This document shows positions 28,686-50,809 of a stretch of 64,000 nt of DNA, in pieces. The position numbers and the translations under genes are program-made. Origin of the DNA: Euborellia annulipes (Eukaryota > Arthropoda > Insecta > Dermaptera > Anisolabididae); the NCBI GenBank assembly GCA_023213315.1, contig JAKCPI010002496.1:62001-126000 (forward strand). Direction: 5' to 3'. The notes under the pieces were generated by a model. It was not told the DNA's origin. It was given only the letters and a program-made list of their open reading frames with translations, and searched no databases. Every line of letters begins with the position of its first letter. The stretch's first letter is position 1.

Positions 28686-28943
28686 TTAAAATTAAATATA
28701 CAAATTAAACACTAGGTTATTTGTTTCAAAGGTTTTATTAATTAAAAAATTAACACTTGATACGTCTTTCGACAATTCTTTGTCATCATCAGAAGTGATT
28801 ACAAGGAATTGTCGAAATACGTATCAAGGGTTAATTTTTTAATTAATAAAACCTTTGAAACAAATAACCTAGTGTTTAATTTGTATATTTAATTTTAATT
28901 TACAAAATGTTTCAACGAGAACCAACGGTCGAAAGTTTAAATC
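28686..28943. mobile_element. 258-bp palindromic hammerhead-like element with 13-bp TSD
   Basis: Inverted arms of about 100 bp (ACACTAGGTTATTTGTTTCA and complement) meet near 28798. The right arm is followed by a tail (AAAATGTTTCAACGAGAACC) shared with 38285-38320. TTAATTGAGAAAA occurs at 28673-28685 and 28944-28956 as a target duplication. The left arm carries a hammerhead-like motif on the minus strand. Confidence 0.75.
28761..28792 (-). ncRNA. Hammerhead-like ribozyme motif
   Basis: Minus strand: CTGATGA, T, hairpin GAC-AAAGAATT-GTC, GAAAGACGTA. The core is intact; stem III region GACGTATC can be read as a very short helix ending in UA. The other arm of the palindrome carries a decayed copy (GTCGAAATACGTATC). 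Confidence 0.55.
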
Positions 28944-29020
28944 TTAATTGAGAAAAATAAGAACAGGGGTCCAAATTAGCTTCAGAAGCTAAAAAAAAAA
29001 ACATTAATCAAAACAAATTT

Positions 29021-29281
29021 AGCCCTCGGGGCTTGGCGTAGAGGTTAGCTTGCTAATCTCGTATACGAAACATCGCGGGTTCGGACCCCAGGCAGTCCGA
29101 TGATTTTATTTAAGCCATTTGGATACCAAATGGCTTAAATAAGAATGCCTGGACCCCAATAAATATATTTATATAATAACGGTTATCGTAAAAAGTCTTA
29201 TATGGCCTAAGTTGCCGAGAAGACTGTGTGAATGTGAGCGTGAATGGCAAAAAGTGTGAATGTTTAAAAAAAAAAAAAAAA
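29021..29281 (+). mobile_element. tRNA-derived SINE (family 1)
   Basis: GCCCTCGGGGCTTGGCGTAG head, GGGTTCGGACCCC B-box, ATTTGGATACCAAATGG palindrome, TATGGCCTAAGTTGCCGAG core and A-run tail. AAATTTA occurs at both edges. Confidence 0.88.
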
Positions 29282-29282
29282 T

Positions 29283-30232
29283 TTAAATTTTACCCCTACT
29301 CCAAAGGATAGGGGAGATAATTTTTACCACTATTAGCAGCAAGGCTGTACTACTATCTGTATCAGCCAAAAGTATCCATTGGCTAGAGATCTGACTAGAG
29401 ACGTGATTAGAGAGAGTTGATATTAAATTATTTTTTTAAATGTCTTTTGATAAGATTGATTAATTAATTGAAGCGTTTGAAAAATTGACTGTATAAGCAA
29501 ATATACATGCATCTGTGTGTTGGTTGCAAAGCTTAAATGCACTTGGTCTCTCTAAGAGAGTTGACAGCGAGATGAATACTTTTGACTGTTACAGATAGTA
29601 CATTTAAGTTTAATTTCCTTTTCTAAAAAGGGCGTAACATTTTGTCTATAATGTGTGGGAACTATTGAATAATAAATTTCAACGTTTATCCTTTCAATCC
29701 TGTCAAATAAATAAATTTTATTTATTTTCTATATTAATAGATGAGATGAAATATGTCTGCTTTAATGCATCCTGATAAATTAATCAGGAACATTTCAATA
29801 ATATATCCCAGCCAAATAATATAAAATTGATTTATTTTCAGTATATGGTACCGTAGGTATGGATTTAATAGGGTTTTAACATGTCATGTCAGCTATGGTA
29901 ATCAATGCCATGATTAAATTATCATTAGTTGTAAGATAATAATCAGCTTTCATAAAAAAAAGTAAAACGTGGAATTTTCCCTCCTCCCGCCACATCCACT
30001 TGAAAAAAAAATAGTTACGAATGTAAATAATATAAGGGAATTTTTATTAATCAAATGGAAAGGAGGTATAGAAGGCAATAAAGAATAAAAGTTAGTTCTA
30101 AAGGACGGTCCACTTGTGGAAATCCCTAAGTGATCAATATCCTAGCGCCCAATCAACACAAACACCTTTTATTGGTCGCTTCTTTATATTCTTAGAGAGC
30201 TTTAAACCATCTAAAAAACTGTACAAAATAAT
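29283..30232. other. AT-rich stretch without recognised feature
   Basis: No gene or named repeat recognised. Confidence 0.6.
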
Positions 30233-30424
30233 TTTAGAATATTATTGAAAGTTTTTAGTGTAGACCAGTATATAATTAAATTAATTTAAAAGTCAGTAGT
30301 TTTTTCTTGGTCAATTCACAGATGGTAATTGAGTATATAAATAAAACGAATTTTTTTTTAAATTAGTTTTATATTTCAGAGCATCCTTTTGGACATCTGG
30401 CTGACAAGTTTGCGCAAGTTTCTA

Positions 30425-30456
30425 CTTGTTTCGGCACAATGAACTGCCGTCTTCAG
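30425..30456 (-). ncRNA. Hammerhead-like ribozyme motif (left arm)
   Basis: Minus strand: CTGAAGA, C, hairpin GGCA...TGCC, GAAACAAGTA. Here stem III can be read as AC/GU with an AA loop and A at the cleavage position, the most canonical stem III in the window. Confidence 0.6.
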
Positions 30457-30571
30457 AGCTAATTTTATCTCTTCACTCTTTGTAATCTTATAGTAGAGAA
30501 AGCAAAATTTCAACAAACAAAAATCATAAAACCATTGAAATTTTGCTTTCTCTAAGAGATTAAAATTGGCT

Positions 30572-30603
30572 CTGAAGACGGCAGTTCATTGTGCCGAAAC
30601 AAG
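30572..30603 (+). ncRNA. Hammerhead-like ribozyme motif (right arm)
   Basis: CTGAAGA, C, hairpin GGCA...TGCC, GAAACAAGTG. Mirror of the motif at 30425 with one decisive change: G at the cleavage position, so this arm should not cut. Confidence 0.55.
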
Positions 30604-30768
30604 TGGAAACTTGCGCAAACTTGTCAGCCAGATGTCCAAAATGATGCTCTGAAATATAAAAACTAATTTTTAAAAAAATTCGTTTTATTTATATACTCAA
30701 TTACCATCTGTGAATTGGCCAAGAAAAAACTACTGACTTTTAAATTAATTTAGAATATTAATTCATAG

Positions 30769-30900
30769 GAGCCCTCGGGCTTGGCGTAGGTGGTAGCGCG
30801 CCTGCCTTGTATACCAAGGGTCGAGGGTTCGGATCCCAGGCAGTCAAATGATTTCATTTGTCATTTGTTACCAAATGGTTTAAATAAGAATGCCTATACC

Positions 30901-30942
<42 letters not shown>

Positions 30943-31009
30943 TAATAACGGTTGTCGTATAAAGTCTTATAAGGCCTAAGTTGCCGTAAAGACTGTGAGT
31001 GTTAAAAAA
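30769..31009 (+). mobile_element. tRNA-derived SINE (family 1, variant head)
   Basis: GCCCTCGGGCTTGGCGTAGG head, GGGTTCGGATCCC B-box and TAAGGCCTAAGTTGCCG core. A (TA)n tract (30904-30938) interrupts the middle. It lies just outside the palindromic element ending at 30748. Confidence 0.85.
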
Positions 31010-31050
31010 AAAATCAGAGGAGCAGAAAAGTGAAGGCAGGCATCATAGAG

Positions 31051-31084
31051 TAACGTTTTGGTAGCGCATTATTCCTATCTTCAG
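31051..31084 (-). ncRNA. Degenerate hammerhead-like motif
   Basis: Minus strand: CTGAAGA, imperfect hairpin, CCAAAACGTTA. The G of GAAA is replaced by C, so this is a decayed relative. Confidence 0.35.
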
Positions 31085-31179
31085 AACGATAAATTGTTAA
31101 TACTGCTTACTCGTTAGATGAATTCATAGCAGAGCATACAAAAATAGAACAGGAATTTGTATAAACTAACGAATTGGAT

Positions 31180-31388
31180 TAAAATTCAAAAAATAATTAT
31201 TTTTTAGATGCTTTTTAAAATGTATGTTCTCATTTTGCCATCAAAATCCCATGTTTATAAATTTGACATTTTGAATTCTATATATACATCGACACAAAAA
31301 ATCTGGTGTGACAAGCACAGAACACAAATTTCGAATACCAAAGGAAAGAGAAATTTGTGTGCTCTGCGGCGAGTCAGACCAGATTTTT
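31180..31388 (-). repeat. Family A fragment with hairpin
   Basis: Reverse-oriented end of family A (TTTTTAGATGCTTTTTAAAA, ACATCGACACAAAAAATCTGG) plus a hairpin with diverged arms (CAAATTTCGAATACCAAAGG / AAAGAGAAATTTGTGTGC). Confidence 0.8.
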
Positions 31389-31416
31389 TTATGCGGGCAC
31401 GACACCACAGCACTGA

Positions 31417-31545
31417 CCAAGATTGAAAGGCGAACTTTCAATCTTGGTGAAATACAAGATTGAAACGGTACGCTACCACTAAGATTGAAGACAAACATTT
31501 CAATCATGTCTTTCACCAAGATTGAAAGTCCGCCTTTCAATCTTC
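31417..31545. repeat. Nested hairpins of AAGATTGAAAG
   Basis: ACCAAGATTGAAAG and CTTTCAATCTTGGT alternate several times, forming a hairpin at 31417-31449 and a similar one at 31516-31545. Probably the remains of a small palindromic element. Confidence 0.6.
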
Positions 31546-31829
31546 TATAATTCCATTATGCAAGCAATTTCTATTTAATGGTATATACACATTTTTGTTA
31601 ATTATATTTGTATGCCTCGCTATGTATTCATCTAACAGCAGTAAGTAGCCTCTAAAATTTTAAGATCAAGTGTTTATTTTTCAAAAAAAAAAAAAAAAAA
31701 AAAAAAAAAATGCAAATTTTATTAAATGTTTTCTTTTTCTTCCGCCATAAAATTGTTACTATTTACATTTAATTACGAAATTGTTATTTTTATTAATTGA
31801 TTTAGACTTTCACAGTTATTGTTATTAGA

Positions 31830-32640
31830 AATAAAAGACATTTTTTAGCATAAATCGTAGTTTAATTCAACAAATTGTTATTAATTACAATAAAACGTTG
31901 TATTTTATTGTAATTAATAGGGACCGGATTCTTAGGTTTTCACCTTTTTCTTTTCTTGACTCCAAACGCGAATGGACAAATTAATTTTTCGACTTATGTG
32001 TTCTGGAGTTGTTTAATCAAATTTTGAAAAACCTAAAAAAATAAAGTTTCACTTTAAAAACCTAAATGGGTTCGGGCCACCTAAAATCACCTAAATTAGA
32101 AAACTTATCGACCGAGATTTTTTTTTTTATTTATTGGTGCTTTTAGATTGAGAAAAAAATTTTTTTAACGAAATTACGACGAAAAAAAATATTTCATTTT
32201 ATGTACTTCCAGAATTATTTAATTTTCTTATATAATGTTTTAGGTACCTGTAATTTTTTGTACTTTTTAATAATTTTTGTACATAGATATTTAAAATTAA
32301 AACTTTTTTCCCATAAAAATTTTACAATTATATTTTTTAAAATTAAAACCGGGGGGGGGGGGGGGGGGGGGGGGGGAAAAAAAAAATATAATTAAAATAA
32401 TATTTTTTTACAAATTTCTGTACATATTTAAAATTAATTAAAACTTTTTTTCCCCCAAATGCGTTTTATTGGGCGAAAACCTAAAAAAAAAAAAAAAAAA
32501 AAAACCTATTTTGGGTGTTACAAAAACCTAAAAACAAGTCGGATCGAACCTAAAAATCCGGTCCCTACAGTAGTAATTAATAACACATTTTGTATTATTA
32601 TTTGCTAAAATAAACCACGATTTATGCCAAAAAAATGTCT
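31830..32640. repeat. Palindrome (family C) split by a later insertion
   Basis: Left arm GACATTTTTTAGCATAAATCG ... AACGTTGTATTTTATTG and right arm AATAACACATTTTGTATTATT ... CGATTTATGCCAAAAAAATG are complementary across the element at 31918-32572. The centre, AAAACGTTGTATTTTA, is like the 3' end of the hammerhead motifs at 875 and 49655. Confidence 0.6.
31918..32572. mobile_element. TIR element (GGGACCGGATT) with 8-bp flanking repeats
   Basis: Ends TAGGGACCGGATTCTTAGG and CCTAAAAATCCGGTCCCTA. GTAATTAA lies at 31910-31917 and 32573-32580, although five extra bases (CAGTA) precede the right copy. Interior is AT-rich with a 26-base G-run (32351-32376). Related by its ends to the element at 33632. 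Confidence 0.7.
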
Positions 32641-33149
32641 TATTTGATTATTTTAATTTAAAGTTGGTTTTGTGGTGGCCATACCAGTTTATTTTTCTCT
32701 CTCATTAGAAATGGTAACTTATTCACCCATATGATAATGAGGGAGTAATTTAAGATTGTATATCTAAGGGCAGCCAAGTGCCAAGTTACGGTTCAATTAA
32801 GTAAGGTGTCTATGCATGCATGCATGCCCTCTCTCTTCTCTCTCTCTCTCTGAGGAACATATAAAATAAGGATCGTTAGTGACAGACTAATGAGTGAGGC
32901 TTGCTTTTATCTCCTTCTCTGTGTTGAGAGAGAGAGAGAGAGAAAAAATATCAACAAGCGTGTATTTAAAGTCACATTATTTGTTGATTCACGCAACAAC
33001 GAAAAGAGATGTTTGTTATGCTTTTTGAATATTTATTCAATTAAAAAAAATGGGTTTTAATATTCAAAAGGTCTAAATACACGTATTCAACTAACTTTGA
33101 ATAAATAATATTTCGACGCTTTCTTAAATAGAATTATTATTAAAAAAAA
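32641..33149. other. No recognised gene
   Basis: (CT)n and (GA)n tracts at 32828-32852 and 32930-32943. Otherwise AT-rich. Confidence 0.55.
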
Positions 33150-33631
33150 AATAAACTGCCCAAAAAATCAAGTAATTCGAAAATTTGCCAAGAGATGTCA
33201 GAATGGTAGCTAATAAAATTTAATGCATTTGGTTGATTTTCATTGATCTTTTAACAATAAATACTTTATAAATGTTATTATATAAGCTTATTATGTATCT
33301 TTTATAAAAATATATAAATATAGGCTAATACTAAATCGGCTGTTAGACTAGCCTGCCATCTATTGCAAGAATGCTGAACTAATTTGACAGTTGATTTTCA
33401 AATAAATCATTAAAAAAATTTCTTAATTAATATGTGAATAATAATAACAATAAATTCATTTTTAAATTTAAAAAAAATTAAAGATTATTGTTTTTTATTT
33501 GCTTGATAACAAAAAAATTAATTACGATAATTTTTTAATAAGTTAATAAAAAATTATAGCTCGATGTCCCAATAATCTCTTATGAATTTAATTCATTTAA
33601 AAAAAAACCGCATTGAAAAATTCCTTATAAT
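33150..33631 (+). repeat. Element Y copy, interrupted at its 3' side
   Basis: Shares the ordered blocks GCCAAGAGATGTCAGAATGG, GACTAGCCTGCCATCTATTG, ATTAATTACGATAATTTTTT and CCGCATTGAAAAATTCC with copies at 43588, 52962 and 56440. It stops at the hAT-like element at 33632; beyond that (34906-35030) lies an inverted piece of the Y start. No protein recognised. Confidence 0.8.
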
Positions 33632-33763
33632 TAGAGACCGGACAAAAAAGCATAAAAAAATGAAAAAAAAGTGCTTAAAAAAGCATAAAAAACTTGAATA
33701 AAAAGTTGTTAAATAAGCATAAAAGTTGAAAAAAAGCATCTAATAAGCAATTTTTACTCATAC

Positions 33764-34646
33764 CAATGGCGTATACAAATTTTTACTTTCTCTTACCTCT
33801 ATATATATGTTAATATATAGAGAGAGAAAGTATTGTATTCATGTCAAAAATTCGATGTCGAGATTTTGATGGATATACACGTTTTGAGCTCCCCTGAATC
33901 CAAAAAAGTGGTTTTTCGCGACATGGTCTGTCTGTGGGTGTGTGGGTGTGTGGGTGTGTGTTCAATTTTAAGCATGAAGGATTTGAGCTATCAGGCTGAA
34001 ATTTTATATTTAAGTTAAACACCTCCCGGGAGCGTGAAAATAAGCTTTTAATCAAAATCGGCCAAAGAGTACTAGTACTTTACTGATGTACTTTTTCAGT
34101 TTTTTTCGATTTTCTCAAAATTTGCTCCAACGATTTTTTTTAAAATTCAAAAATCAATTATATTTTAGATGCTCTTTAAAATGTATATTCTCATTTTGCG
34201 ATTGAAATCTTCTGAAGACCACTTTACTCTTGTACTCCATAGAAAAGATAGGAGAAATGGTTGCCATGGTAACAAAATATAAATATTTTCCCTTACTTAT
34301 AAATTTTACATCTGAATTCATCATATGTTCCGTACTGTCGGGAACTAAATATATGTCGACACAAAAAATCTGGTGTGACAAGCACAGTACACAACTTTCG
34401 ATTACCGAAGGTAAGAGAAAGTTGTGTGCTGTGCGCCAGTCACACCAGATTTTTTTTTTAAAGAAACTAAATTTATTCCGCCCCGCCCTGCGAAAAATTT
34501 TGCTTTTGCGGAACCAAATTTTTTCACCCTGCGGAAAAAATTTTTTTACAATGCTATAATTTTTCGCACTGCGGGGCTTTTGAAATTTTTTTTTTTTTTT
34601 TTTTTTTTGGGGGCGCCCTCCCCCCTCCCCCTTATATACGTGCCTG
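33764..34646. mobile_element. hAT-type MITE carrying a family A insertion
   Basis: Left end CAATGGCGTATACAAATTTTT (split after CAATGGCGTATACAAA), right end TTATATACGTGCCTG. Interior GCGGAACCAAATTTTTTC blocks match the MITE at 10212. No clear target duplication, so limits are approximate. Confidence 0.5.
33782..34455 (-). mobile_element. Family A repeat, full-length copy
   Basis: Reverse orientation: TTTTACTTTCTCTTACC, AT palindrome, TGTGGGTG microsatellite (33934-33960), AGTACTAGTACTTTACTGATG, CCATGGTAACAAAATATAAA, then the hairpin at 34368-34449. One of the best-preserved copies, useful for a consensus. Confidence 0.92.
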
Positions 34647-34905
34647 GTGTATGCGTGTGTGAATGGGAAAAAAGTGTGTTTTTTAATAAAAAAAAAAAAA
34701 AAATTATAAATATTCGTAAAATAAGTTCAAATAAGCACGAAAGGGAAAAAAAAGCATGAAAACTCAAAAAAAGCAAAAAAAGCATAAAAAATGCAATCTC
34801 AATACACTTAGTTTTTCCTAATTCGTATAGAAATTAAATATCTAATGGTTGCTTATAAAATTGAGCAATAAGCATTTTGCTTAAAATCCGGCCTCTACTT
34901 ATAAT

Positions 34906-35040
34906 AATTGAGCTACCATTCTGACATCTCTTGGCAAATTTTTGAATTACTTGATTTTTGGGCATACTTTTTATGACACACATACGCCCTCTTATCGGGA
35001 AAAACATGCGTAACCACTTCGCTCCCGTTCACCCTTAAAA
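34906..35040 (-). repeat. Element Y 5'-end fragment (inverted)
   Basis: AGCTACCATTCTGACATCTC to CGGGAAAAACATGCGTAACC, the reverse of the Y beginning. It faces the Y copy at 33150, so the pair flanks the hAT-like element. Confidence 0.75.
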
Positions 35041-35844
35041 ATATTAGGTTTTTGAGCTACAGCGCAAATGATTTCGTTATCATCGATTCAGTAATGGTTG
35101 CCAAATTTAAAGCCATATTCACGTAAAAAAAAAACGAACCTTCAAAGAAGATAATTTAATCACAATTTTGAGATTTTTAAATAACCCTCTGACCAAGCAC
35201 TGATTTGTTTAGAATTTTAGACTAGTTAAGAATTTAATATTTCATTTTGCTCAAAATTTTCTTCTTTTATTTTGTTTTAGAAACTTTATAGAGAGATCTT
35301 AGGAAATTTCCCAATTATAAGCTACAATAAGCATCAAAGAATTAATTTGATTAACCGGCGGTTGAGAGAGAGAGGAGAGAGAGAGAGTTTAAACAGAGCA
35401 AACAGTAACTTAATCCCAATAGCATCGCAAGAGTTACAAGACTCCATCTCTCTCTCTCTCTCACAACTTATAATCGGTGTAGCTATAGAGAAGCTATAAA
35501 GAAAATCCATTATACCTGAACAAATAAACAAACTAATTCTATTATTTTTCTTGAAAATAAAAAAATCTGCCAATGAACTCATCGAACATTTGCTGCAGCC
35601 GAACAACTTTCAACTTTGGACAATCCTAATACAATTTTTTCCATCCCTGAATGCCAATAACTTATATTTACAATATTCTATAGTTCTTTAACTTTCCAAA
35701 AATCATTCATTAGTGAAGATCTGTTAAATATTAACGAAATTATGAACAATCAACAATGGTTATGAAAAAAACACTTTGGTTGCCTATCTCTTAGGCGCTT
35801 AGCTCTCTCTCCGAAACTCGAGCTCATAGGAATAAAATAAAGAT
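35041..35844. other. No recognised gene
   Basis: (GA)n and (CT)n tracts at 35365-35388 and 35446-35461; otherwise AT-rich. Confidence 0.55.
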
Positions 35845-36617
35845 CGGATTTTAAGCAAAATGCTTATTGCTGAATTTTATAAGCAAAATATTTAATTTTC
35901 TACACCCCTCGGGGCTTGGTGTAGGGGTTATCGTGCTCGGACCCCAGGCAGTCCGATGATTTTATTTAAGCCATTTGGATACCAGATTTTTTCATGCCTT
36001 TTTTTGAGTTTTTATGCTTTTTTACCCCTTCGTGCTTATTTGGACTTAATTTACGTATATTTATAAAATTTTTAAAAATAATTCAAAACATTATTTATCA
36101 AAAACGTTCATGTAATGCAAATCCTTCGGTAATTGCGTAAATCCGCCTTGGGCTTTCCTACTCTGTCCCCCCCGGGGGGGGCCTCCCTTTTTTTTCCTTT
36201 TTTGTTTTTTTTTATATTTTAAAAAAAAATTTTTTTTATATTAAAGCGCTAGGCACGTACTTCCTGTGCCTGTGAGTATGTGACTTCTCTCGCTGATTGG
36301 CCAGAATTATAGGAAATGGAATTAGAGAGGGAAAATTAAAACTTTAGGTCAGAGAGGGAAATTTAAAAGCTTGCAAAAAATCAACCAAAAGTTGAGCAAG
36401 AATACATTTGATGCATTTGTTCTCTTAAGGCGAGCAAGTTCACTTGTAATATCATAATTTAGTAGTAAGGTATAAGCCAAAAGAGAAGTTTTTCGGAGGG
36501 GGGGGGGGTAATTACCCCTTTGTTTATGAGATGCTTTTTTTTTAATTTTATGCTTATTGAACAGCTTTTTATTCAATATTTTATGCTTATTTAAGCACTT
36601 TTTTCCATATTTTTGTC
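35845..36617. mobile_element. Second copy of the 33632-type element (decayed)
   Basis: Starts ATCGGATTTTAAGCAAAATGC and ends TTTTGTCCGTTCTTTA, the reverse of the 33632 ends, with GCATAAAA-type low complexity inside. It contains a truncated SINE (35905-35988) and a block (about 36130-36430) shared, inverted, with 54140-54370. Target duplication not recognised. Confidence 0.5.
35905..35988 (+). mobile_element. SINE (family 1) with internal deletion
   Basis: CCCCTCGGGGCTTGGTGTAG head, then a jump to CGGACCCCAGGCAGTCC and the ATTTGGATACC half-palindrome. Lacks part of the head and all of the tail. Confidence 0.75.
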
Positions 36618-38063: not shown

Positions 38064-38325
38064 TTAATAGGAGAATTAAATTCAGAAGATTTTCTGTTTC
38101 AATAATATATTAATTTGATATTAACACTTTATACGTATTTCTACACCATATGTATCATCTTCTGAAGCGAATTACATACTGAGGATGACACATATGGTGT
38201 CGAAATACGTATAAAGTGTTAATATCAAATTAATATATTATTGAAACAGAAAACCTTGTGAATTCAATTCTCCTATTAAAGCATAATGTTTCAACTAGAG
38301 CAAACGGTTACCAGTTTAAAATTAA
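38064..38325. mobile_element. 262-bp palindromic hammerhead-like element with 12-bp TSD
   Basis: Two arms of about 105 bp (GGAGAATTAAATTCA ... TTTCTACACCATATG and complement) meet near 38175, followed by a tail (ATAATGTTTCAACTAGAGC) homologous to that at 28905. TTCAACATTCCT lies at 38052-38063 and 38326-38337. The empty site exists in the other copy of element X. The right arm carries an intact hammerhead-like core. Confidence 0.85.
38179..38212 (+). ncRNA. Hammerhead-like ribozyme motif
   Basis: CTGAGGA, T, five-pair hairpin GACAC-ATATG-GTGTC, GAAATACGTAT. Stem III can be three pairs (AUA/UAU) closing a CG loop, followed by A at the cleavage position. All core residues are acceptable. Confidence 0.6.
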
Positions 38326-39460: not shown

Positions 39461-39464
39461 TGTT

Positions 39465-40042
39465 TTTACTTTCTTTTACTTAGAAAGAAAAAGTATTGCA
39501 TTCATATAAAAAAAAATTCGACGTTAAGATTTTGAGACGTTTTGAGACCCCATGTGTCCAAAAAAAGTAAGTTTTAAGTTGTGTACCATCCTAAGGGAGA
39601 AAAATATGCTTTGAAATAAAATCGGCCAAAGAGTACTAGTACTAATGTACTTGTTCAGTTTTTTTCCATTTTCTCAAAATTGCATTCTAGCGATTTTGAT
39701 TAAAATTCATAAATCTATTATTTTTTAGATGCTCTTTAAAATGTATATTCTCATTTTGCCCTTGAAATCTTTCGAAACACATTTTGTTTTCAAAATTAAT
39801 TGAAGCACCACTTTACTCTTGTGCTTCATAGGTAAGATAGGAGAAATGGTTGCCATGGTACAGAAATATAAATATTTTCTCCATGTTTCATAAATTTTAC
39901 ATCTTGAATTCGAGTATACTGCCGGAAATTAAATACGTATATGTCGACACAAAAAATCTGGTGTGACAAGCACAGAACACAACTTTCGATTACCGAAGGT
40001 AAGAGAAAGTTGTGTGCTGTGCGCCAGTCACACCAGATTTTT
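39465..40042 (-). mobile_element. Family A repeat copy, internally deleted
   Basis: Reverse orientation. The AT palindrome is reduced (TTTTACTTAGAAAGAAAAAG), the CA microsatellite and CATGTCGCG block are lost, and the rest (AGTACTAGTACTAATGTAC, ATGGTTGCCATGG, hairpin 39957-40038) is kept. Confidence 0.88.
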
Positions 40043-40246
40043 AACTTAGAAAAACTACAAGTTTCATTAATATACCATTTGAAATAGACGAATAAACTAA
40101 TTTATTCTGAACTACTAACTTCTAGAATTTTTGAAATCCCCCCTTTTACCAGCTTCACTGTTTTGTATGAAGTATGCGTGTAAAGAAACGTTTTGCAAAT
40201 CTAAGCTGTGTTGCAAGTCTGTGACGAGTTTTGCCTCGCGAGGCCC

Positions 40247-40345
40247 CTTTAATGGTAAGTCGCCTACGCCTAGCTTCGCCACTGCACAGCACATTACCTT
40301 CGGTAATAGAAAGTTGTGTTCTGTGCTTGTCACACCAGATTTCTT
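40247..40345. repeat. hAT-like end joined to a family A half-hairpin
   Basis: GCGTAGGCGACTTACC / CTAGCTTCGCCACTG resembles a hAT terminus (CAGTGGCGAAGC) on the minus strand and runs straight into GCACAGCACATTACC...GTCACACCAGA of the family A hairpin. A recombinant junction of two repeats. Confidence 0.5.
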
Positions 40346-40969: not shown

Positions 40970-40971
40970 TG

Positions 40972-41205
40972 GGGCTCACTGGTGTAGTGGGCTAGGGTGT
41001 CTGTCGGCTTCAAAAAGAGATCCGTGTTCAATTACTGGGCGTGTAAGGGATTTTTTCATTAAATAAAAATATTTATTTAATGTAAACAAATCCTCAAGCA
41101 GGTACTAGATTGGAATATGGGATCTCACCACAATAGCTGTTGTTGTGACATCCCGTCCTGTGGAAGGGACGTAAGGAATGTTCCCTCTCAGTTAGTAGGC
41201 CTATA
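40972..41205 (+). mobile_element. Possible SINE with tRNA-like head
   Basis: CACTGGTGTAGTGGGCTAGG is A-box-like and GTGTTCAATTACT weakly B-box-like about 50 bases on. The body contains an inverted repeat (GTGACATCCCGTCC, GGAAGGGACG). Assignment is tentative. Confidence 0.4.
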
Positions 41206-41206
41206 T

Positions 41207-41480
41207 ATTTTTTATTTGTGAAATCTTATAAATTATAACATTATAACATGACATAAATCAGAGATATTATAATTACCTTGCGGGCTGTCAATATAGGTAT
41301 ACAATCAATATTGACAGCCCGCAGGATAATTATAATTATAAATATAATATCTCTGATTTATGCCATGTTATAATGTTATAATTTATAAAATTATACAAAT
41401 AAAAAAATATATACTCTATGTTGTTATAGCTCTGAGGATGGTCTTGACCAAGACCGAAACGTCAGCCTAGCGGGCCAATA
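41207..41480 (+). mobile_element. Palindromic PLE-related element with hammerhead-like motif (family B)
   Basis: Arms of about 95 bp (TATTTGTGAAATC ... GCGGGCTGTCAATATAGG and complement) are followed by the motif at 41432-41463 and a 3' block (GGGCCAATAAATGAAATAA). It shares the CTGTCAATATAGGCATAC segment with 13200-13290. No target duplication identified. Confidence 0.65.
41432..41463 (+). ncRNA. Hammerhead-like ribozyme motif
   Basis: CTGAGGA, T, six-pair hairpin GGTCTT-GACC-AAGACC, GAAACGTC. Stem I pairs GCT before with AGC after. Core fully conserved; one of the best candidates here. Confidence 0.65.
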
Positions 41481-41547
41481 AATGAAATAATTTTATTTGC
41501 TATTCTTTTATTTACCAATTAACATTTGTTTTAATTATTTATTAAAA

Positions 41548-41873
41548 ATATAAATACTCTACAACGATTCGACTGTTTATTCTGCAGCCGTTTTCAAGTA
41601 CTGTGCACTTGCTCCGGCTAAAGCCAACTAACCTCTAAGGAAATTTGATATGCAATGACGTCAGCGCCATATAGAGTCATTCCCATGAAATTAAATGGCG
41701 CTGATAATTGTTTCTAACTTGAAAATGACTGTAGATAACGCTGACGTCACTCCATATCAAATGCATGTAGGTGTTCCTTAGAGGTTAGTTCACTTGGGTC
41801 GGAGAAAGTGCGCAATACATGAAAACGACTGCAAAACAAGCAGTCGAAACGTTGTACAGTATTTATATTTTAA
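41548..41873. mobile_element. Palindromic element with hammerhead-like motif in each arm
   Basis: Arms AAAATATAAATACTCTACAAC ... GGTTAGTTGGC and complement (with mismatches) surround a centre containing TGACGTCAGCGCC. Motifs at 41562-41596 (minus) and 41819-41854 (plus) face outward. Limits approximate. Confidence 0.6.
41819..41854 (+). ncRNA. Degenerate hammerhead-like motif
   Basis: ATGAAAA, C, hairpin GACTGC-AAAACAA-GCAGTC, GAAACGTT. The hairpin is perfect, but C3 is A and G8 is A, so it is probably inactive. The mirrored copy at 41562-41596 is also degenerate (GTCGAATCGTTG). Confidence 0.45.
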
Positions 41874-42849
41874 ATCTATAATTAAAAACTTCCATAATAA
41901 TAATAATAATACAAACTACAAAAGCTTAATAAAAACAAAATTTTCCCTTGCTAAGAAACAATTACTTAATATTGTTATTCTTTTACGTCAAAAGTAAAGT
42001 GAAAGGATTCAAGAAGGAGAAGAAGCAAAGCACAAACCACCAAAAGGGCTTTAATTGAGAGAGACCAAGTTTAATGAAGGGCCGTGCAATTAGCCAAGAG
42101 GTTGGAGTGCAAACAGAGACTGGCTGGATGACCTGCTGTTACCAACCAACCAACCTCAGCAAGGAACCCTTTCTTCCTTCCTTCCTTGATCGCTCTATTC
42201 CCATCCCGGGTGGAAAACTTTGCAAACTATTCCCTCCCCCCCCCCTCCCCCTCACCATACATTCCACTGATTGTTATTTCTTGATATCCTCTTCTATTAC
42301 AGCTGTTGGGAATTCTCAATTAGAAATAATGTGATTGGAAATTTGGAAGTTATGAAAAGATGCACCTATAATTACTGTTTTGTTTGTTAGAATGGTTTAG
42401 TTAATGTTTTTTTTTTTTTTATTTCCCCTTTCAGCAGTTAGCCATTAAGGTTAGTTAATGTTATTTCTTCACGTTAGTTTTCCTCTCAGTCTAGTAATTG
42501 CTGCAGGTCGAAGGAAAATATGATAAATAAAAATTAATTAATTAATTAATTCAAAAGTAGGTACCGCCGGGAATCCAACAGATATGTAGAAAAAAGCCTT
42601 TAGACCACACCACCGCACTTGGCTACTTGAGTTAATAAATTATGCAATACTAATAGGCCTATATTTTAGTATTTCTTTGTATACATTTTTATTATTATTT
42701 TTTTTTTGTAAGATCTTTTTCGGTATTTAAGGCCATAAATATTTGTTTCAAATGATTGGTAGTCATTCAATGGAAATACATTTTTCTCGCTCAAGACAGG
42801 AAGCGAACCCGGGAAGCTAATGTCTTCTCTTTGAGCAAGGGTTTTTATA
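41874..42849. other. No recognised gene
   Basis: C-runs near 42235-42253, a TTAA-rich tract near 42531-42551, otherwise unremarkable. 42560-42625 and 42785-42840 contain possible reversed SINE-head relics. Confidence 0.45.
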
Positions 42850-42850
42850 T

Positions 42851-43185: not shown

Positions 43186-43221
<36 letters not shown>

Positions 43222-43587
43222 TTCACACTATTAGACAATTTGCACAAGAGCCACTTGAGAGAGCAAGAGCGAGTGAACTCAAAGAAAAGAACTTCAATTA
43301 AAATGGTATTATTAATCAGATGTCAAGCGCAGGCGCCGCCGTTCCGTTTTGAAGGCGTAAGCACAATGAGGGCGTTAAATTTCCAAGACAAATGAATAAA
43401 CTTTTAAATGAGAGAGGGAGAGTGAAAGTATCGAATCAAATCTTGTGTGTTATTGTTCAGCTGATCTAAGATTAAAAAAAAACTTATTTTAATATGAAAC
43501 AAGAGAGCGCGGCTGATTGAAAAGGGTTTCTATCCTTTCTTTCTTGTACATTATAATCTAACCTTAAAAGATAAATGATTAAGGGGG
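42877..43587. other. No recognised gene
   Basis: A poly-T tract of about 30 at 43190-43220; otherwise AT-rich. Confidence 0.6.
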
Positions 43588-44190
43588 TTCAGGAGCGACG
43601 TACTTAAAAAAAACTAGACTATTATAAGGAATTTTTCAATGCGGTTTTTTTTAATGAATTAAATTCATAAGAGATTATTGAGACATCGAGCTATAATTTT
43701 TTTAATGACTTATTAAAAAATTATCGTAATTAATTTTTTTGTTATCAAGCAAATACAAAAAAACAATCTGTCCCAATAATCTTTAATTTTTTTTTAAATT
43801 TAAAAATGAATTTATTGATATTATTAATCACATATTAATTAAGAAATTTTTAAAATAAGCTTAGATGATTTATTTAAAAACAAACTGTCAAATTAGTTCA
43901 GCATTCTTGCAATAGATGGCAGGCTAGTCTAACAGCCGATATAGTATTATCCTATGTTTATATATTTTTATGCTTTTATAAAAGATACATAATATATAAT
44001 AACATTTATAAAGTATTTATTGTTAAAAGATCAACGAAAATCAACCAAATGCATTAAATATTATTAGCTACCATTCTGACATCTCTTGGCAAATTTTTGA
44101 ATTACTTGATTTTTGGGCATACTTTTTATGACACACTACGCCATCTTATCGGGAAAAACATGCGTAACACCTTCGCTTCCGGTCCCCCTT
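43588..44190 (-). repeat. Element Y copy (reverse)
   Basis: Runs from AAGGGGGTTCAGGAGCGACG to GGGAAAAACATGCGTAACACC. It shows the uninterrupted end AAGTACGTCGCTCCTGAACC, which is the empty counterpart of the Transib-like insertion at 53352. Confidence 0.85.
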
Positions 44191-44209
44191 TTTTCTTTTT
44201 TTTTAAACA

Positions 44210-44354
44210 CTCACACTTTTTCCTCAATTTCACTCACACTCACACACACATTCACACAGTCTTTTCGGCAACTCAGGCCATATAAGACTTTTACGATATC
44301 CGTTATTGATTAATTAGTCATATTGGGTCCATTTGGTACCCAAATGGCTTAAAT
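44210..44354 (-). mobile_element. SINE (family 1), 3' part
   Basis: Reverse tail (TCACACTCACACACACATTC), core CGGCAACTCAGGCCATATAAG, and part of the palindrome (CATTTGGTACCCAAATGG). The head is missing and a family A 3' end follows. Confidence 0.8.
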
Positions 44355-44450
44355 TGTATATCCATCAAAATCTCGACATCGAATTTTTGACATGAAACCA
44401 ATACTTTCTCTCTATATATTAACATATACATAAAGGTAAGAGAAAGTAAA
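44355..44450 (+). repeat. Family A 3'-end fragment
   Basis: GTATATCCATCAAAATCTCG through the AT palindrome to GGTAAGAGAAAGTAAAA. Confidence 0.85.
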
Positions 44451-45040
44451 ATGATTATAAGTTTTATATAGGCCTATAAAAAAAAACTTTCCCAAAACAA
44501 ACTCAACTAGAGCATTTACAAAGGAAATTATTGTTAAACATAAACAAACTCATCCTTTTACATTTACTAAGGCAAAATTGTATCAAAGAGAAAGAAAGTA
44601 GAAATAGGCAAAAGTGTGTATAATTTCAATAAACTAAAGTTTTCATTTGATTTAATTCACATACACAAACACATAGGCACCTTGATGAATGATGCAAAGG
44701 GCTTTTTGATCAACTAAGCAAAAGGAATTTTCATTTCATATCTCATTATATTAATATAGAGAGGAAATTCTCAAACACTTGTTCATCCAGTAAAAGTTAA
44801 TAAATTTTTTTTTATTTAATGAATTAAATTAAATTCATTGGACTGTATTCCAACATACAAACACCGAATTTTATAATATTTATGAGAAGATGTGGGAAGA
44901 TGAAGATATTTACTAATCTGAAATTTTTTCGCATATTGTTGACATTTCGAGGAGTAAATGTCATCTATCTATTGTTAAAAATTTATTGTTTTGCCTCCTC
45001 AATTTTTGAAAAAGAGAATGAATATACTCCATTGATGGAG
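44451..45040. other. AT-rich stretch without recognised feature
   Basis: No gene or named repeat recognised. Confidence 0.6.
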
Positions 45041-45048
45041 CAGGCAAG

Positions 45049-45321
45049 CAGTGGAGTCATTTCAACTTTTTCTTGGGAGGGGGGTGCAAATTTTTTCTTG
45101 GGGTGGGGGCAAACATTTTTTTATCTTAAAATTTACTTACAAATGGGTACTCAAATTTGGCCAAAACATATTTAATTTAATTAATTGTTTAATTTTGTAC
45201 AGTTTGTATACTCATAGATGTATTTTGGAGTATTTTATTTAGAATAATATAAAATTTTATAAAAATCAGAGCCCTTGGGGGGAGGCAAATGCCTCCCCCT
45301 GCCCCCCAAATGACGCCACTG
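45049..45321. mobile_element. hAT-type MITE with perfect 8-bp TSD
   Basis: Ends CAGTGGAGTCATTTCAAC and CCCCAAATGACGCCACTG; duplication CAGGCAAG at 45041-45048 and 45322-45329. The block AGAGCCCTTGGGGGGAGGC matches the MITE at 19845 in reverse. Open frames across it are repeat translations. Confidence 0.93.
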
Positions 45322-45405
45322 CAGGCAAGATATTCTGTAGTAAAATTTAATATTTTAAAACTAGAGGCAAAGATAAATAAATATTTTAACAACCATGCCC
45401 TGATG

Positions 45406-45594
45406 CCCTCGGGCCTTGGTGTAATGGCTACTAGTGTGCTGGACTTATGTCGCGAATTCGCATCCCGTCTCATGCGACAAAAATTTATTTCAATTTAATT
45501 TAATACCAATCCAATTGAAATAAATAGAGATGGGGTCTAAATGGCCTCCGTTGCCGAAATAGACCTTAAATAAATTAAAAAAAAAAAAGAAAAA
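45406..45594 (+). mobile_element. tRNA-derived SINE (family 2) with 12-bp TSD
   Basis: 189 bp. Head CCTTGGTGTAATGGCTACTAG (A-box) and CGAATTCGCATCCCG in the B-box position, a TTCAATTTAATTTAATACC region, the shared core TAAATGGCCTCCGTTGCCG and an A-rich tail. CATGCCCTGATG lies at 45394-45405 and 45595-45606. The head differs from family 1 but the core is the same. Confidence 0.9.
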
Positions 45595-45606
45595 CATGCC
45601 CTGATG

Positions 45607-46008
45607 AGTGTGATGAAATCTGAATAAATAATTTGCACTCACTGAATAAATAATTTTGAGTCGGAAAAATTTAATTTTCTCTTCATTTACTTTATAATAT
45701 TAACAAAATTATTTTCGTGACAATATAAATACCGGCATCAGAAGACAACATCAGCTCAGTTAAAATAGAATTTATTTTGGGAAATTTATCTTTACATTTA
45801 TTGAGCACAATGGATAGACGTCTTCAATTCAATCAATTTATGGTGATATAAAAAACCATCAATAGAAATATTTTCATCCATGTAATAGGAAAAAAAAGTA
45901 TCGTTACTTGTACAAATATCGACCATCTGTTATAAATAAAAAAAAAAAAACAAAGTGTTGAATCTCATTTGGATCTTCTATTAGAAAAGAAAAGAGGAGC
46001 AAAAAGTA
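45607..46008. other. AT-rich stretch without recognised feature
   Basis: No gene recognised. Confidence 0.6.
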
Positions 46009-46012
46009 AAAA

Positions 46013-46532
46013 ATCTGGTGTGACTGGCGCACAGCACACAAATTTCTCTTACCTTCGGTAATCGAAAGTTGTGTACTGTGCTTGTCACACCAGATTTTTT
46101 GTGTCGACATATATTTAGTTCCCGACAGTACGGAACATATGAATTCAGATGTAAAATTTATAAGTATGGGAAAATATTTATATTTTGTTACCAAGGCAAC
46201 CATTTCTCCTATCTTTCCTATGAAATACAAGAGTAAAGTGGTCTTCAGAAGATTTCAATTGCAAAATGAGAATATACATTTTAAAGAGCATCTAAAAAAT
46301 AATTGATTTTTGAATTTAAAAAAAAATCGTTGGAGCAAATTTTGAGAAAATCGAAAAAAACTGAAAAAGTACATCAGTAAAGTACTAGTACTCTTTGGCC
46401 GATTTTGATTAAAAGCTTATTTTTCCGGTCCCGGGGGTGCCTAACTTAAATATAAAATTTCAACCTCTTAGCTCAATTCCTTCATGCTTTAAATTGAACC
46501 CAGACAGACAGACCATGTCGCGAAAACCACTT
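46013..46532 (+). mobile_element. Family A copy, 3'-truncated
   Basis: Hairpin 46013-46095, full body to CAGACAGACCATGTCGCG, then the 3' end is replaced by the reverse end of the next copy; the junction lies in ACCACTTTTTACTTTC. Confidence 0.9.
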
Positions 46533-46882
46533 TTTACTTTCTCTTAACTCTTATATATGTTAATATATAGAGAAAGTATTGGATTCATGTCAAAAATTCG
46601 ATGTCGAGATTTTGATGGATCTTCACGTTTTGAGGTCCCCTGAGTCCAAAAAAGTGGTTTCCGCGACATGGTCTGTCTGTGTGTGTGTGTGTGGGTGTGT
46701 GTTCAATTTTTCGCATGAAGGAATTGAGCTAGGAGGTTGAAATTTTATATTTAAGTTAGGCACCCCCGAAGGAGCGGCAAACTAAGCTTTTGACAAAATC
46801 GGCCAAAGAGTACTAGTACTTTACTGATGCACTTTTTCAGTTTTTTTCGATTTTCTCAAAATTTCCTCCAACGATTTTTTTA
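46533..46882 (-). repeat. Family A copy, reverse, truncated before the hairpin
   Basis: TTACTTTCTCTTAACTC and AT palindrome to AATTTCCTCCAACGATTTTTT, then joined at 46883 to a half-hairpin. Confidence 0.88.
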
Positions 46883-47048
46883 TTAAGAGAAAGTTGTGTG
46901 CTGTGCGCCAGTCACACCAGATTTTTTGGATTCAGGGGACCTCAAAACGTGTATATCCATCAAAATCTCGACATCGAATTTTTGACATGAATCCAATACT
47001 TTCTCTCTCTATATATTAACATATATAGAGGTAAGAGAAAGTAAAAAA
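46883..47048 (+). repeat. Half-hairpin fused to a family A 3' end
   Basis: AAGAGAAAGTTGTGTGCTGTG...CACCAGATTTTTTGG joins ATTCAGGGGACCTCAAAACG in a shared T-run, then continues to the normal 3' end. The same type of joint, with opposite polarity, occurs at 21034-21041. Confidence 0.85.
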
Positions 47049-48079
47049 AAAATATGCGAAAATCTTTGCAGAATCGTGATTAAAATATTTGAATAATTTT
47101 TAAAGTCTATATGATACCGGGGGGCCTGGCAACGGAGTAGAGCAACAGTCACCACAATTGTTGCTGTTAAGCAATGCCAAGCGCAGCGAAATCTGGGCGG
47201 AGGTGTCTGTATGGTAGTAGGCTAATAAAAGAAAATATTTCTTAATCTGCGTTGCCCAATACAACGTTCTATATTTTAGAGAGAAGGAAAAGGAAACTTG
47301 CAATGCCACATCGCAATTCTAGAATACTCCAACCCCCTAACAATGGAGAATTGGCGAGTTAAACTAATTCGTATTTGATTGAAATAACGTCACTCAATAT
47401 AATGATTTTTTGAGTTGTGAAGATGCATTCAGATAACCTAATAATCAACGAGACTTTTAATTTTTCCATCATAATTTTGTATAATATAGTTAGGTATTCA
47501 TGGTTAATAATTTTGCCTCTGCCTCCTGTTATCCTTCACTATTACCTGGATAAATTCGCTGCTGTTAATTATGATTTGTAAACGTAGAGGCGATATACAA
47601 AACTTGAGACTAGTTAAGCGTATAATTAATAAAATTATTATTTGAGACAAATGCGAGTTAATCTACGTATATAACGAACGAGTAAAGTGAGAATATGTAA
47701 CAGAGGAGAGGGTAATTTATTTGTATGAAAAGATAGCCAAGATAAATTGCTGTTGCCTTCGCTTAAAATAAATAACCCAATTGGATACTGAATTATAATT
47801 TAGACCAATTATTTTATATATAATGGAGGGTCCGACTCGAAACACTTTGTGAATGAACGAACGAATGCAATTATTCGAAACATTTACTTGTCTTCTCTCT
47901 CAGAGGGAGAAATTGGTATGAACACAACAACAACAACAACAACAATTCCTCTTAAATTGTTTGTTTCACCGTCCAGGAATTCCAAATCAAAACCACTATG
48001 CAATAGTTAAGCAACTAACTTAACCTTTGTGTACTTTTTTGTCATTTAATCTGTATGTAGTGAATGAACAAAGAAACTA
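47049..48079. other. No recognised gene; possible 5S-like repeat at 47115-47190
   Basis: 47115-47190 (GGGCCTGGCAACGGAGTAG, TTGCTGTTAAGCAATGCC) is related to 24344-24450 and weakly recalls the 5S rRNA A-box. (CAA)n at 47927-47946. The remainder has no recognised feature. Confidence 0.45.
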
Positions 48080-48081
48080 TT

Positions 48082-49008
48082 TTTACTTTCTCTTACCTCT
48101 AGATATGTTAATATATATAGAGAGAAAGTATTGGCCATGTCACAAATTTTGATGGAAAATGTTTGATGGATATTCACGTTTTGAGGTCCCCTAAATCCAA
48201 AAAAGTGGTTTTCGCGACATGGTCTGTCTGTCTGTCTATGTGTCTGTGTTGTCTGTCTGTCTGGGTTCAATTTAAAGCATGAAGTAATTGAGCTAGGTCG
48301 TTGAAATTTTATATTTAAGTTAGGCACCCCCTAGGGCGTGAAAATAAGCTTTTTATAAAAATCAGTCAAAGAGTACTAGTACTTTACTGATTCACTTTTT
48401 CAGTTTTTTTCTATTTTCTCTAAATTCTCTCCAACGATTTTTTTTTAAATTAAAAAATCAACTATTTTTTAGATGCTCTTTAAAATGTATATTCTCATTT
48501 TGCCATTGAAATCTTCTGAAGACCCCTTTACTCTTGTACTTCATAGGAAAGATAGAAGAAATGGTTGTCATGTTAACAAAATATAAATATTTTCCCATGT
48601 TTATAAATTTTATATCGCCCTCGGGGCTTGGTGTAGGGGTTAGCGTGCAAACCTCGTATACCAAAAGTCGCGGGTTCGGACCCCAGGCAGTCCGATGATT
48701 TGGATACCAAATGGCTTAAATAAGAATGCCTGGACCCCAAATAAATATAATATATTCATAACGGTTATCGTCAAAGTCTTATATGGCCTGAGTTGCCGAG
48801 AAGACTGTGTGTATGTGTGAGTGAGTGTGAATGAGAAAATGTGTGAATGTTAAAAAAAAAAAAAAATTACATCGAATGTACCATACTCTCGGAACCTAAA
48901 TATATGTCGACACAAAAAATCTGATGTGACAAGCACAGTACACAACTTTCTCTTGCAGAAGGGTAAGAGAAATTTGTGTGCTGTGCGAACAGTCACACCA
49001 GATTTTTT
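48082..49008 (-). mobile_element. Family A copy interrupted by a SINE
   Basis: Reverse copy: end 48082, GTCTGTCTGTCT microsatellite near 48222-48265, AGTACTAGTACTTTACTG, SINE at 48617-48866, then GACACAAAAAATCTGATGTG and the hairpin to 49008. Confidence 0.9.
48617..48866 (+). mobile_element. tRNA-derived SINE (family 1) nested in family A
   Basis: GCCCTCGGGGCTTGGTGTAG head, GGGTTCGGACCCC B-box, half of the palindrome, TATGGCCTGAGTTGCCGAG core, TGAGTGAGTGTGAATG tail and A-run. TTATATC/TTACATC at the edges may be a degenerate target duplication. Confidence 0.88.
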
Positions 49009-49650
49009 CTATGGTGGTTACTATAATAAAATTGAGATTATGTCAAGAAAAAATGTTACCCTTTGCGTCCTTATAGCTCGTAAATTAAACGAGACAGTGA
49101 AATGGTTGAAATGCCATTAGAAAGGGGATGAAATTCTGTATCCAAAAATATATAAACGATTATTGTCAGAAGAAGATAAACGACATGACGAGATCTTAAA
49201 TATGAACGAAATTTATTAAAAGATTGAAGAAAAATATACTGTATTTTATAATTTGATATATTATAATTTATTTTCCCCTTTGCAACTCAACGAGCATCTC
49301 CACACAAACTACGTATAACTAAACATAATTGGCAAGTTGAGAAAAAGATATTCTGATTTTTTTATCAAGTAAAATAAAATTTGATACTTGAACTTTTAGT
49401 AGAAAAGAAAATTTGACAAAATTATTTTTTATAATAAGCTCTTTTCAACCCCTCTTCAAAAGTGGGTGAAAAAAAATTTATAAAGCGAATCGGGTTTCAA
49501 AAAAAGAGGTAAAAAAAAATAATACTAAAGTATTTTTTTTATAAATTTATCTACCTATACTTAAATATTTTTGACGCCCAAAAAATAAGTTTAAGTTAGG
49601 TATCAAAGTTTTTTTTTTTTAATTCTTGATTCGGTGGCTTATTTGTATAA
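49009..49650. other. AT-rich stretch without recognised feature
   Basis: No gene recognised. Confidence 0.6.
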
Positions 49651-49654
49651 GATA

Positions 49655-49689
49655 CAACGTTTCGGACACTCATTGTGGCTTTTTTTCAG
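49655..49689 (-). ncRNA. Degenerate hammerhead-like motif
   Basis: Minus strand: CTGAAAA, imperfect hairpin (GCCACAATGAGTGTCC), GAAACGTTG. G8 is A. Followed by TATCTTATACAAATAAGCC; related to family C. Confidence 0.4.
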
Positions 49690-50510
49690 GTATAAATTAA
49701 GATAAAGTACCTTTTTTTTAGTAAATTTTCTCTTTTTTTTAGTATGCATCCCTTCTTTTCAAACTCAAAAAATTTTATAAAATTCAACTTTGAATTGTTA
49801 TGACACGCTTAGAGAAACAAATCCCTGGGTCCCCCATGTCACAATTAGTAACGTTTTGGCTCCCCCCCTAACGCGTTACATAATATGTGGACGATACCTA
49901 AGAATTTTTATTTTGTTCAAATATACTAGAGTAAATTAAATAATAATTTCAGCGCGGGACGCAAACCTCCGAACTTTAGAACAAAAAGCGAAACTTCTAC
50001 CACTGTGTTGAGGAATTCTAACGAATATTCCAAATTTTTTGATAATTTCGAATAAATTTAATTTTCATAAGATACAACTCTAACAAATTAACTGCAATAT
50101 ACTCAAAATCAATAATTTTATGCAATGTTTGTAAGCAAAAGAATTAGAACAAATAAATATAAATTTTTTGCCCCCACCAGGTGGAAAATGAAAACGTCAA
50201 TATTGACAACCTTTAAAGTTAAGGGATGTGGATTCAGTCAGATGGAAATTTATTTAAATCAATAGGATAGAATTGGAATAAATTAAAGTGCTTGGATAAA
50301 CAGTGGCCACAGATGGCAAAAAAAAAAATGTTTTTTGTTTTTCCTATTCTAAGAGGTAGATTCTCAAAATAAAGCATTATTAGAAAGATCTATGATAGGA
50401 TTATGTCTCCGGGAGGTGGATCTATGAGAGTTCAACCCCCCCCCTCTTCCTACCATAAATCTTGAAAACAATGTTATCATAGTGTTAAATAAAATTAATA
50501 GAAATTAACA
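49690..50510. other. No recognised gene
   Basis: AT-rich; a C-run near 50439-50447. Nothing supported. Confidence 0.6.
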
Positions 50511-50524
50511 AAAAAAAATGTTGA

Positions 50525-50809
50525 TGAAGATATTAGTGAGAAGGATGAATAAATAAAATCCGGAGATGATTTTCAGGCCAATTTATTTGGATTAACTCCT
50601 TCCGAATGAAATCAGGCGTCATTGCCTTTCACTATATGTTACAAGCGTGATTAACCACAACTTTTAATGACAAAATTTGTTTTCTTGCCCCCCGCATGGT
50701 CCTGAAGAAGGAGTCGTTTTGACTCCGAAACGTTGACTCATAGGGGAAGGAGTTAATTCAAAAAAATAGGCCTGAATATCATCTCCGGATTTTATTTATT
50801 CACCTTCTC
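50525..50809. mobile_element. 285-bp palindromic hammerhead-like element with 14-bp TSD
   Basis: Arms of about 60 bp (GAATAAATAAAATCCGGAG and complement, GGATTAACTCCTTCCG / GGAAGGAGTTAATTC). AAAAAAAATGTTGA (50511-50524) and AAAAAAAATATTGA (50810-50823) differ by one base. The right arm holds an intact hammerhead-like core. Confidence 0.7.
50702..50734 (+). ncRNA. Hammerhead-like ribozyme motif
   Basis: CTGAAGA, A, six-pair hairpin GGAGTC-GTTTT-GACTCC, GAAACGTT. Stem I pairs GGTC before with GACT after (C-G, T-A, G-C, G-T). All core residues intact. Confidence 0.65.

Follow-up and report, generated by a model that had tools for sequence, protein, structure and literature searches.

We describe six short palindromic units (E1-E6) in a 64,000-nt stretch of the Euborellia annulipes genome (contig JAKCPI010002496.1, positions 62,001-126,000 of the forward strand; hereafter the window, whose own coordinates are used throughout). 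We consider it fairly probable that they are insertions of pseudo-long-terminal-repeat (pLTR) sequence alone, without open reading frames (ORFs), made by the machinery of Penelope-like elements (PLEs), and that both cut strands of the target primed on separate RNAs and the resulting cDNAs were joined head to head. A broader statement is offered tentatively, with slightly less than even confidence: inverted pLTRs may be footprints of two-ended target-primed reverse transcription, which starts at a tail site at one end and at an inner site at the other, so that short palindromes would be early-aborted products of the normal pathway and antisense self-priming would be unneeded.

Target duplications and outer ends of the units

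Four units had been listed in a sequence-only reading of the window, and their inverted arms, hammerhead motifs and duplications of 12-14 bp were all found where that reading had placed them. E1 is a head-to-head inverted pLTR unit of 258 bp (28686-28943; arms at about 28687-28788 and 28796-28897), E2 an inverted pLTR unit of 504 bp with a hammerhead core in each arm (30245-30748), E3 an inverted pLTR unit of 262 bp (38064-38325), and E4 an inverted unit of 285 bp whose left arm ends short of its hammerhead (50525-50809). Among the 25 longest of 146 inverted-repeat pairs, from which arm coordinates were taken, the arms of E1 are matched at 28676-28788/28796-28908 (94%), those of E2 at 30351-30467/30561-30677 (91%) and 30277-30370/30659-30752 (97%), and those of E3 at 38062-38162/38181-38281 (94%); the arms of E4 lie at 50537-50603/50745-50810 (93%). 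A palindrome scan with a score of at least 60 and a centre gap of at most 300 gave 27 inverted pairs in the window, and none in any of 10 order-2 Markov sequences.

The duplications of E1, E2 and E3 are TTAATTGAGAAAA (28673-28685/28944-28956), TTTAGAATATTA (30233-30244/30749-30760) and TTCAACATTCCT (38052-38063/38326-38337). That of E4 (50511-50524/50810-50823) is the weakest, being an A-rich 14-bp sequence with an A-run and one mismatch. The four-unit list was real in all its members and incomplete, as two further units were found. E5 (19475-19635, 161 bp) has the design of E1-E4 without a hammerhead and is flanked by CCATTATTTATTT (19462-19474/19636-19648). E6 (4242-4377, 136 bp) has a left arm of 11 bp (4242-4252/4327-4337), a right arm that begins within a hammerhead, and the duplication TAAAAATTCTAGA (4229-4241/4378-4390); it was noticed on visual inspection and in a broader search, and because that search also returns chance repeats, the lopsided ends of E6 count for more than its duplication. 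All these duplications are of 12-14 bp, and those of E1-E5 contain 67-92% A+T, in keeping with the AT-rich sites expected of a PLE.

The first duplication scan covered unequal ranges on the two sides and was repeated with symmetric ranges on 26 palindromes, after 39951-40345 was dropped from the 27 because its left arm is common with that of 39952-40042. A duplication score of at least 11 was reached by 6/26 palindromes, compared with 7/300 random intervals in the symmetric scan and with 13 of 800 random placements in the null for the duplication scan. The six are E1-E4, the palindrome at 19470-19608, and one at 307-373 that is not PLE-like. A possible duplication around 13041/13651 was rejected as an A-run inside an apparent other repeat, and one for 41529-41887 as incompatible with the tail end. 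Since the duplications enclose entire units, an inversion after insertion was rejected as well, and each unit looks like a single retrotransposition-type insertion and not an accidental inversion.

The outer ends are the feature that the units have in common. The self-complement alignment overruns the centres of some units, and only the outer overhangs and E6 were taken from it. In E1, E2, E3, E5 and E6 the inverted repeat begins 0-1 nt from one duplication, and a single-copy tail precedes the opposite one, so that five of the six units carry a tail on exactly one arm, as expected of PLE insertions. The tail measures 46 nt in E1 (28898-28943, plus strand, right arm), 36 nt in E2 (30245-30280, minus strand, left arm), 46 nt in E3 (38280-38325, plus strand, right arm), 32 nt in E5 (19604-19635, right arm) and 40 nt in E6 (4338-4377). 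The left end of E4 has an extension of 13 nt (50525-50537, minus strand), which is too short for a normal tail and of uncertain origin.

A non-palindromic tail common to E1 and E3, previously noticed near 28905 and 38285, proved to be homologous (79.5% identity over 39 nt, E = 2e-5; best reversed-tail control, E = 0.017), and the arms of these two units have diverged. Despite the differing arms, the tail-less end lies 9 nt before a conserved tail motif in E1 and 6 nt before the same motif in E3, and such matching is expected of a defined start site. The tail of E5 matches 41904-41934 at 87.5% identity over 32 nt. The latter is the tail of an older inverted copy related to E5 (41529-41934), with a decayed hammerhead in each arm and no convincing target duplication. 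Another older inverted copy, at 41202-41480, is related to E6 and has a hammerhead core at 41432; no target duplication was found for it. In the control for arm homology, reversed arms of AT-rich families also gave matches (best E = 1.4e-6, for 41202), and weak arm matches were not used.

Hammerhead motifs and the assignment to PLEs

Hammerhead cores were defined as CTGANGA, at most 1 nt, a stem II of at least 4 bp, and GAAA. Seven were found in the window (28792-, 30456-, 30572+, 38179+, 50702+, 41432+ and 13170-), compared with a mean of 0.18 and a maximum of 2 in 300 dinucleotide shuffles, and five of the seven lie inside E1-E4 (E1 left, E2 left and right, E3 right, E4 right). In all seven, one extra nucleotide separates stem II from the CTGANGA box. 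The hammerhead of E1 occupies the tail-less arm (28757-28802, minus strand), with core CTGATGA, stem II GACAA/TTGTC and stem I CACTT/AAGTG; the tailed arm is without a core. In E2, the right-arm hammerhead (30562-30634, plus strand) has a stem I of 6 pairs and a longer stem III, and the left-arm core and stem II (30394-30466, minus strand) are accompanied by a stem I of 3 pairs. E4 has the core CTGAAGA, stem II GGAGTC/GACTCC and a stem I of 4 pairs (50692-50737, plus strand). Core and stems I and II, taken here as a minimal type I hammerhead, are thus present in E1, E2 and E4. In E3 they are split between the arms: the right arm (38169-38219, plus strand) has CTGAGGA...GAAA and stem II without a stem I partner, and the left arm, as read from the sequence, has stem I CGCTT/AAGTG and a decayed core. 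An eighth hammerhead-like motif, CTGAAGATGGCCTCTATCGAGACCGAAACGTC (63301-63337, plus strand), escaped the strict scan; its stem I may have 9 bp, and its stem II contains one mismatch.

Stem II is paired at 94.3% across the seven cores and at 67.8% in shuffles, and 10 cells are doubly changed compared with 2.8, in a sample of which two pairs of cores are close relatives. Several results weigh against the hammerhead assignment. Two of five covariation measures are unremarkable (reached by 61/500 and 167/500 shuffles), and no complete hammerhead was found within one arm of E3. When no stem is required, CTGATGA...GAAA occurs at chance level (2 compared with 1.20 expected). Folding of single strands is not clearly better than that of shuffles for three of the four folded, as shuffles folded equally well in 52/200 cases for E2, 142/200 for E1 and 30/200 for E4 (9/200 for the core at 41432). 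Rfam returned nothing at the gathering threshold, and its 26 weak matches include no hammerhead; the evidence for hammerheads is therefore that of the core, stem and covariation tests. Matches of a looser scan were mostly chance and were not used. Outside the window, the pattern scan matched 44 viral-contig loci and at least 120 prokaryote-contig loci, and these were taken for chance; among the 164 such matches listed, stem II is 5 bp or longer in 12, and an inverted repeat with a score of at least 60 lies near 4.

The hammerhead had been proposed as the mark of the class. This does not hold, because E5 shares the design but has no hammerhead, and the right arm of E6 starts inside one, where it is truncated. 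The hammerhead is thus incidental, and the outer ends are the common feature.

No ORF of at least 120 aa overlaps E1-E6 (ATG, GTG or TTG starts, closed ends), and the reverse transcriptase and GIY-YIG endonuclease of a PLE are thus absent from them. We do not call the units PLEs for this reason and file them as ORF-less pLTR insertions, apparently PLE-made. Their pLTRs occur as inverted pairs, a variant reported for PLEs, and no direct tandem pair was found among E1-E6. A PLE origin is supported by the hammerhead cores, the inverted arms, the duplications, the one-arm tails, the conservation of tails, and an endonuclease frame in the window. This frame, an open frame with a GIY-YIG-like endonuclease region (2701-4056, plus strand), appears to belong to a 5'-truncated PLE-type relic, which lies between two TA microsatellites with a decayed hammerhead from 4069 behind the frame. 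For its 168-residue core, 18 of 24 candidates matched at E of at most 0.001, the best being from beetles (57-59% identity), and three lizard relatives are named 'GIY-YIG domain-containing'. Pfam gave GIY-YIG at E = 0.024, a weak match under the cut-off, and a search of PDB sequences with the frame returned nothing relevant. We infer the PLE type from the GIY-YIG-named relatives and the downstream hammerhead remnant, and in part from the general features of these elements. The C-terminal extension of the frame contains repeated WGVGRLRPR-like and PTDQAQPTRDSHVTPKA-like units.

Formation of the palindromes

How the two arms were made may be read from their inner ends. If a single PLE RNA or cDNA folded back and copied its own arm before insertion (self-priming or snap-back), the copy could not extend beyond its template at either end. 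The left arm of E1, which has no tail, holds the full hammerhead including stem I, and its tailed counterpart on the right begins only within stem II or no more than 4 bases into the core. The left arm of E3, also tail-less, continues past the core into the upstream CGCTT, and the core is where the tailed right arm of that unit begins; the left arms of E1 and E3 have TGTAAT(T)C(A/G)CTTC in common. In E5, on the simpler reading, which requires no changes, the tail-less left arm extends about 13 nt beyond the tailed right arm and there matches TACAGTATTTATA of the 41529 copy. The tail thus sits on the arm with the lesser inward reach in E1, in E3 and, on that simpler reading, in E5. A tail-less arm that reaches further can be neither the fold-back copy nor the template of the tailed arm. 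Hence E1 and E3 break the rule of template reach in both directions, as does E5 on its simpler reading, and the arms are most simply explained as copied separately from PLE RNA, one for each cut strand, which would also account for their head-to-head orientation. Self-priming also gives no reason for the matching tail-less stops in E1 and E3. On its side, junction palindromes are common in PLEs and were read in this manner for Adineta vaga, on an antisense template, in the available part of that study (PMC3846280); the high identity of arms within units fits it too, and in E6 the arm of 11 nt could be a copy of the long, tailed one. We regard self-priming as unlikely for these units, and more probable than any of the three alternatives that follow.

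It had also been claimed that whole units retrotranspose and that the palindrome is itself mobile. The duplications, tails and hammerheads agree with the first part insofar as they point to single retrotransposition-type insertions. The second part, in which a non-autonomous palindrome would be transcribed through and copied whole by PLE enzymes, is not supported by the relations among arms. In a four-arm alignment of E1 and E3 (96 ungapped columns), all 23 informative sites join the arms within a unit, none joins left with left and right with right, and none is crossing; the arms were therefore doubled after E1 and E3 split, unless gene conversion homogenised them. Moreover, arm length differs among related copies, with 59-64 nt in E5 and at least 114 nt at 41529-41887, and 11 nt in E6 and at least 68 nt at 41202-41413, the older copy in each comparison being without a target duplication. 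Whole-unit searches found no near-identical second copy of any unit in the window. A duplication flanks each unit, as a mobile palindrome would have it, and E1 and E3 are similar in size (258 and 262 bp), have their tails on the same side and can be aligned over their entire length (67% over 271 columns), yet we judge a mobile palindrome improbable, and each palindrome was probably formed at its own insertion. Two other origins appear very improbable, to a like degree. Animal retrozyme-like elements, that is, short circular-RNA retroelements with type I hammerheads, would agree with the size of 136-504 bp, the type I hammerheads and the longer stem III in E2, but not with arms that are inverted instead of in direct tandem, the extra nucleotide before stem II in all seven cores, or the absence of a hammerhead from E5. 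Foldback or MITE-like (miniature inverted-repeat transposable element) DNA transposons with captured hammerhead sequence would account for inverted arms with target duplications, and unrelated palindromes do occur in the window; their symmetry is at odds with ends that differ as 0-1 nt to 32-46 nt in five units (13 nt in E4), and duplications of 12-14 bp with varied sequence, together with tails conserved between relatives, speak against them as well.

In the two-ended scheme that we prefer, a PLE protein would cut the two strands of an AT-rich target at sites some 12-14 bp from each other and leave 3' overhangs, as the duplications suggest. Each free 3' end would then prime reverse transcription internally on its own PLE RNA, and two start sites about 32-46 nt apart would account for the observed tail at one end only. 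The cDNAs would halt early, and the observed stops range from 11 nt to past the hammerhead. Their ends would be joined head to head, for which short microhomology may have served, and fill-in would yield the target duplication. The hammerhead would be carried along, because it is situated between the start sites and the usual stops, and it is missing from the E5 insertion.

Several points weigh against two-ended priming by a PLE. No full-length PLE of these families was found, in a window in which no reverse-transcriptase search was made, and the PLE identity of the units consequently rests on structure. The margin of reach in E3 is 5 nt, or about 12 nt if the TGTAAT common with E1 is native. 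In E5, because of its nearly palindromic centre, the reach of both arms would be equal if the right arm had lost 8 nt and undergone one substitution, and self-priming would fit in that case. In E4 the hammerhead is in the right arm and the left arm with the 13-nt extension halts before it, an arrangement that is informative only if this extension is a tail. E6 is equally compatible with self-priming, and the reach of the arms of E2 is undecided. In addition, the similar size, the end-to-end alignment and the same-side tails of E1 and E3 are also what a palindromic master would give.

Other repeats of the window were observed beside these units. Imperfect palindromes of about 90-98 bp lie at 4549, 5777, 15474, 21034, 21510, 34363, 39952, 46008 and 48914; the copies read at 4549 (in part), 15474 and 34363 have TCTGGTGTGAC-type ends in common, are MITE-like and are unrelated to the hammerhead units, and the remaining ones are palindromes of similar size. 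Repeats resembling tRNA-derived short interspersed elements (CTTGG...GTAG...GGGTTCGGA(C/T)CCCAGGCAGTC) occur at 1741-1885, 2280-2390, 29018-29160 and 30767-30900, with an inverted pair at 1793-2347 among them. A perfect 41-bp inverted repeat (12470-12510/12686-12726, 175 nt apart) has no link to the hammerhead units.

Relation to known systems

Short palindromes flanked by duplications record both the outer starts and the inner stops of one event. In any PLE-rich genome, self-priming can be told from two-ended priming by asking which arm is tailed and which one extends further inward. Stunted PLE insertions, as these units show, can pass for a new class of ribozyme-bearing elements. The kind of element is known, and the sequence-level argument may be new: among open-licence literature, no paper was recognised by title and abstract as proposing two-ended priming for inverted pLTRs, and we make no claim of its absence from print.

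L1 twin priming is related in that both target strands prime reverse transcription and an inverted junction results. It differs from the present case in that L1 primes at different places of one RNA and yields an inverted segment, not two copies of one region.

The palindromic form had been taken as unfamiliar. However, in the available sections of a study of Adineta vaga, the Penelope elements Pen2a_Av and Pen2_Av have inverted pLTRs with an optional 31-bp tail on one of them, duplications of 8-10 bp and palindromic junctions, and solo pLTRs without an ORF are also described, several of them without duplications (PMC3846280). The head-to-head pLTRs, one-arm tail, target duplications and junction palindrome of our units are thus shared with that system as described there. 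Unlike it, in which the pLTRs are mostly accompanied by an ORF or captured DNA, our units consist only of pLTR pieces of 136-504 bp, with duplications of 12-14 bp and arms ending near a hammerhead. The 2013 authors prefer self-priming for inverted repeats and, in the same sections, call for further experiments (PMC3846280).

For PAc, a Poseidon-type PLE of Anolis carolinensis, the accessible part of a 2024 paper reports that both DNA strands are cut and extended in vitro at AT-rich targets, that a minimal hammerhead lies in the pLTR region, and that two internal start sites of reverse transcription define the tail, and it leaves later integration steps to be validated (PMC11167929). Our units resemble PAc in the hammerhead within the pLTR region, the tail and the AT-rich targets. 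In contrast, PAc is a case of in vitro biochemistry with a full-length protein, and in that part of the paper two-strand extension is not tied to inverted pLTRs.

Animal (non-LTR) retrozymes, as presented in the portion of the source at hand, are made up of direct tandem repeats that carry canonical hammerheads, have circular RNAs of about 170-400 nt, and are thought to depend on PLE-like enzymes (PMC7229834). They are like our units in being short and ORF-less and in carrying type I hammerheads, whereas our units, compared with that description, are inverted single insertions with one tail, and their cores have an extra nucleotide before stem II.

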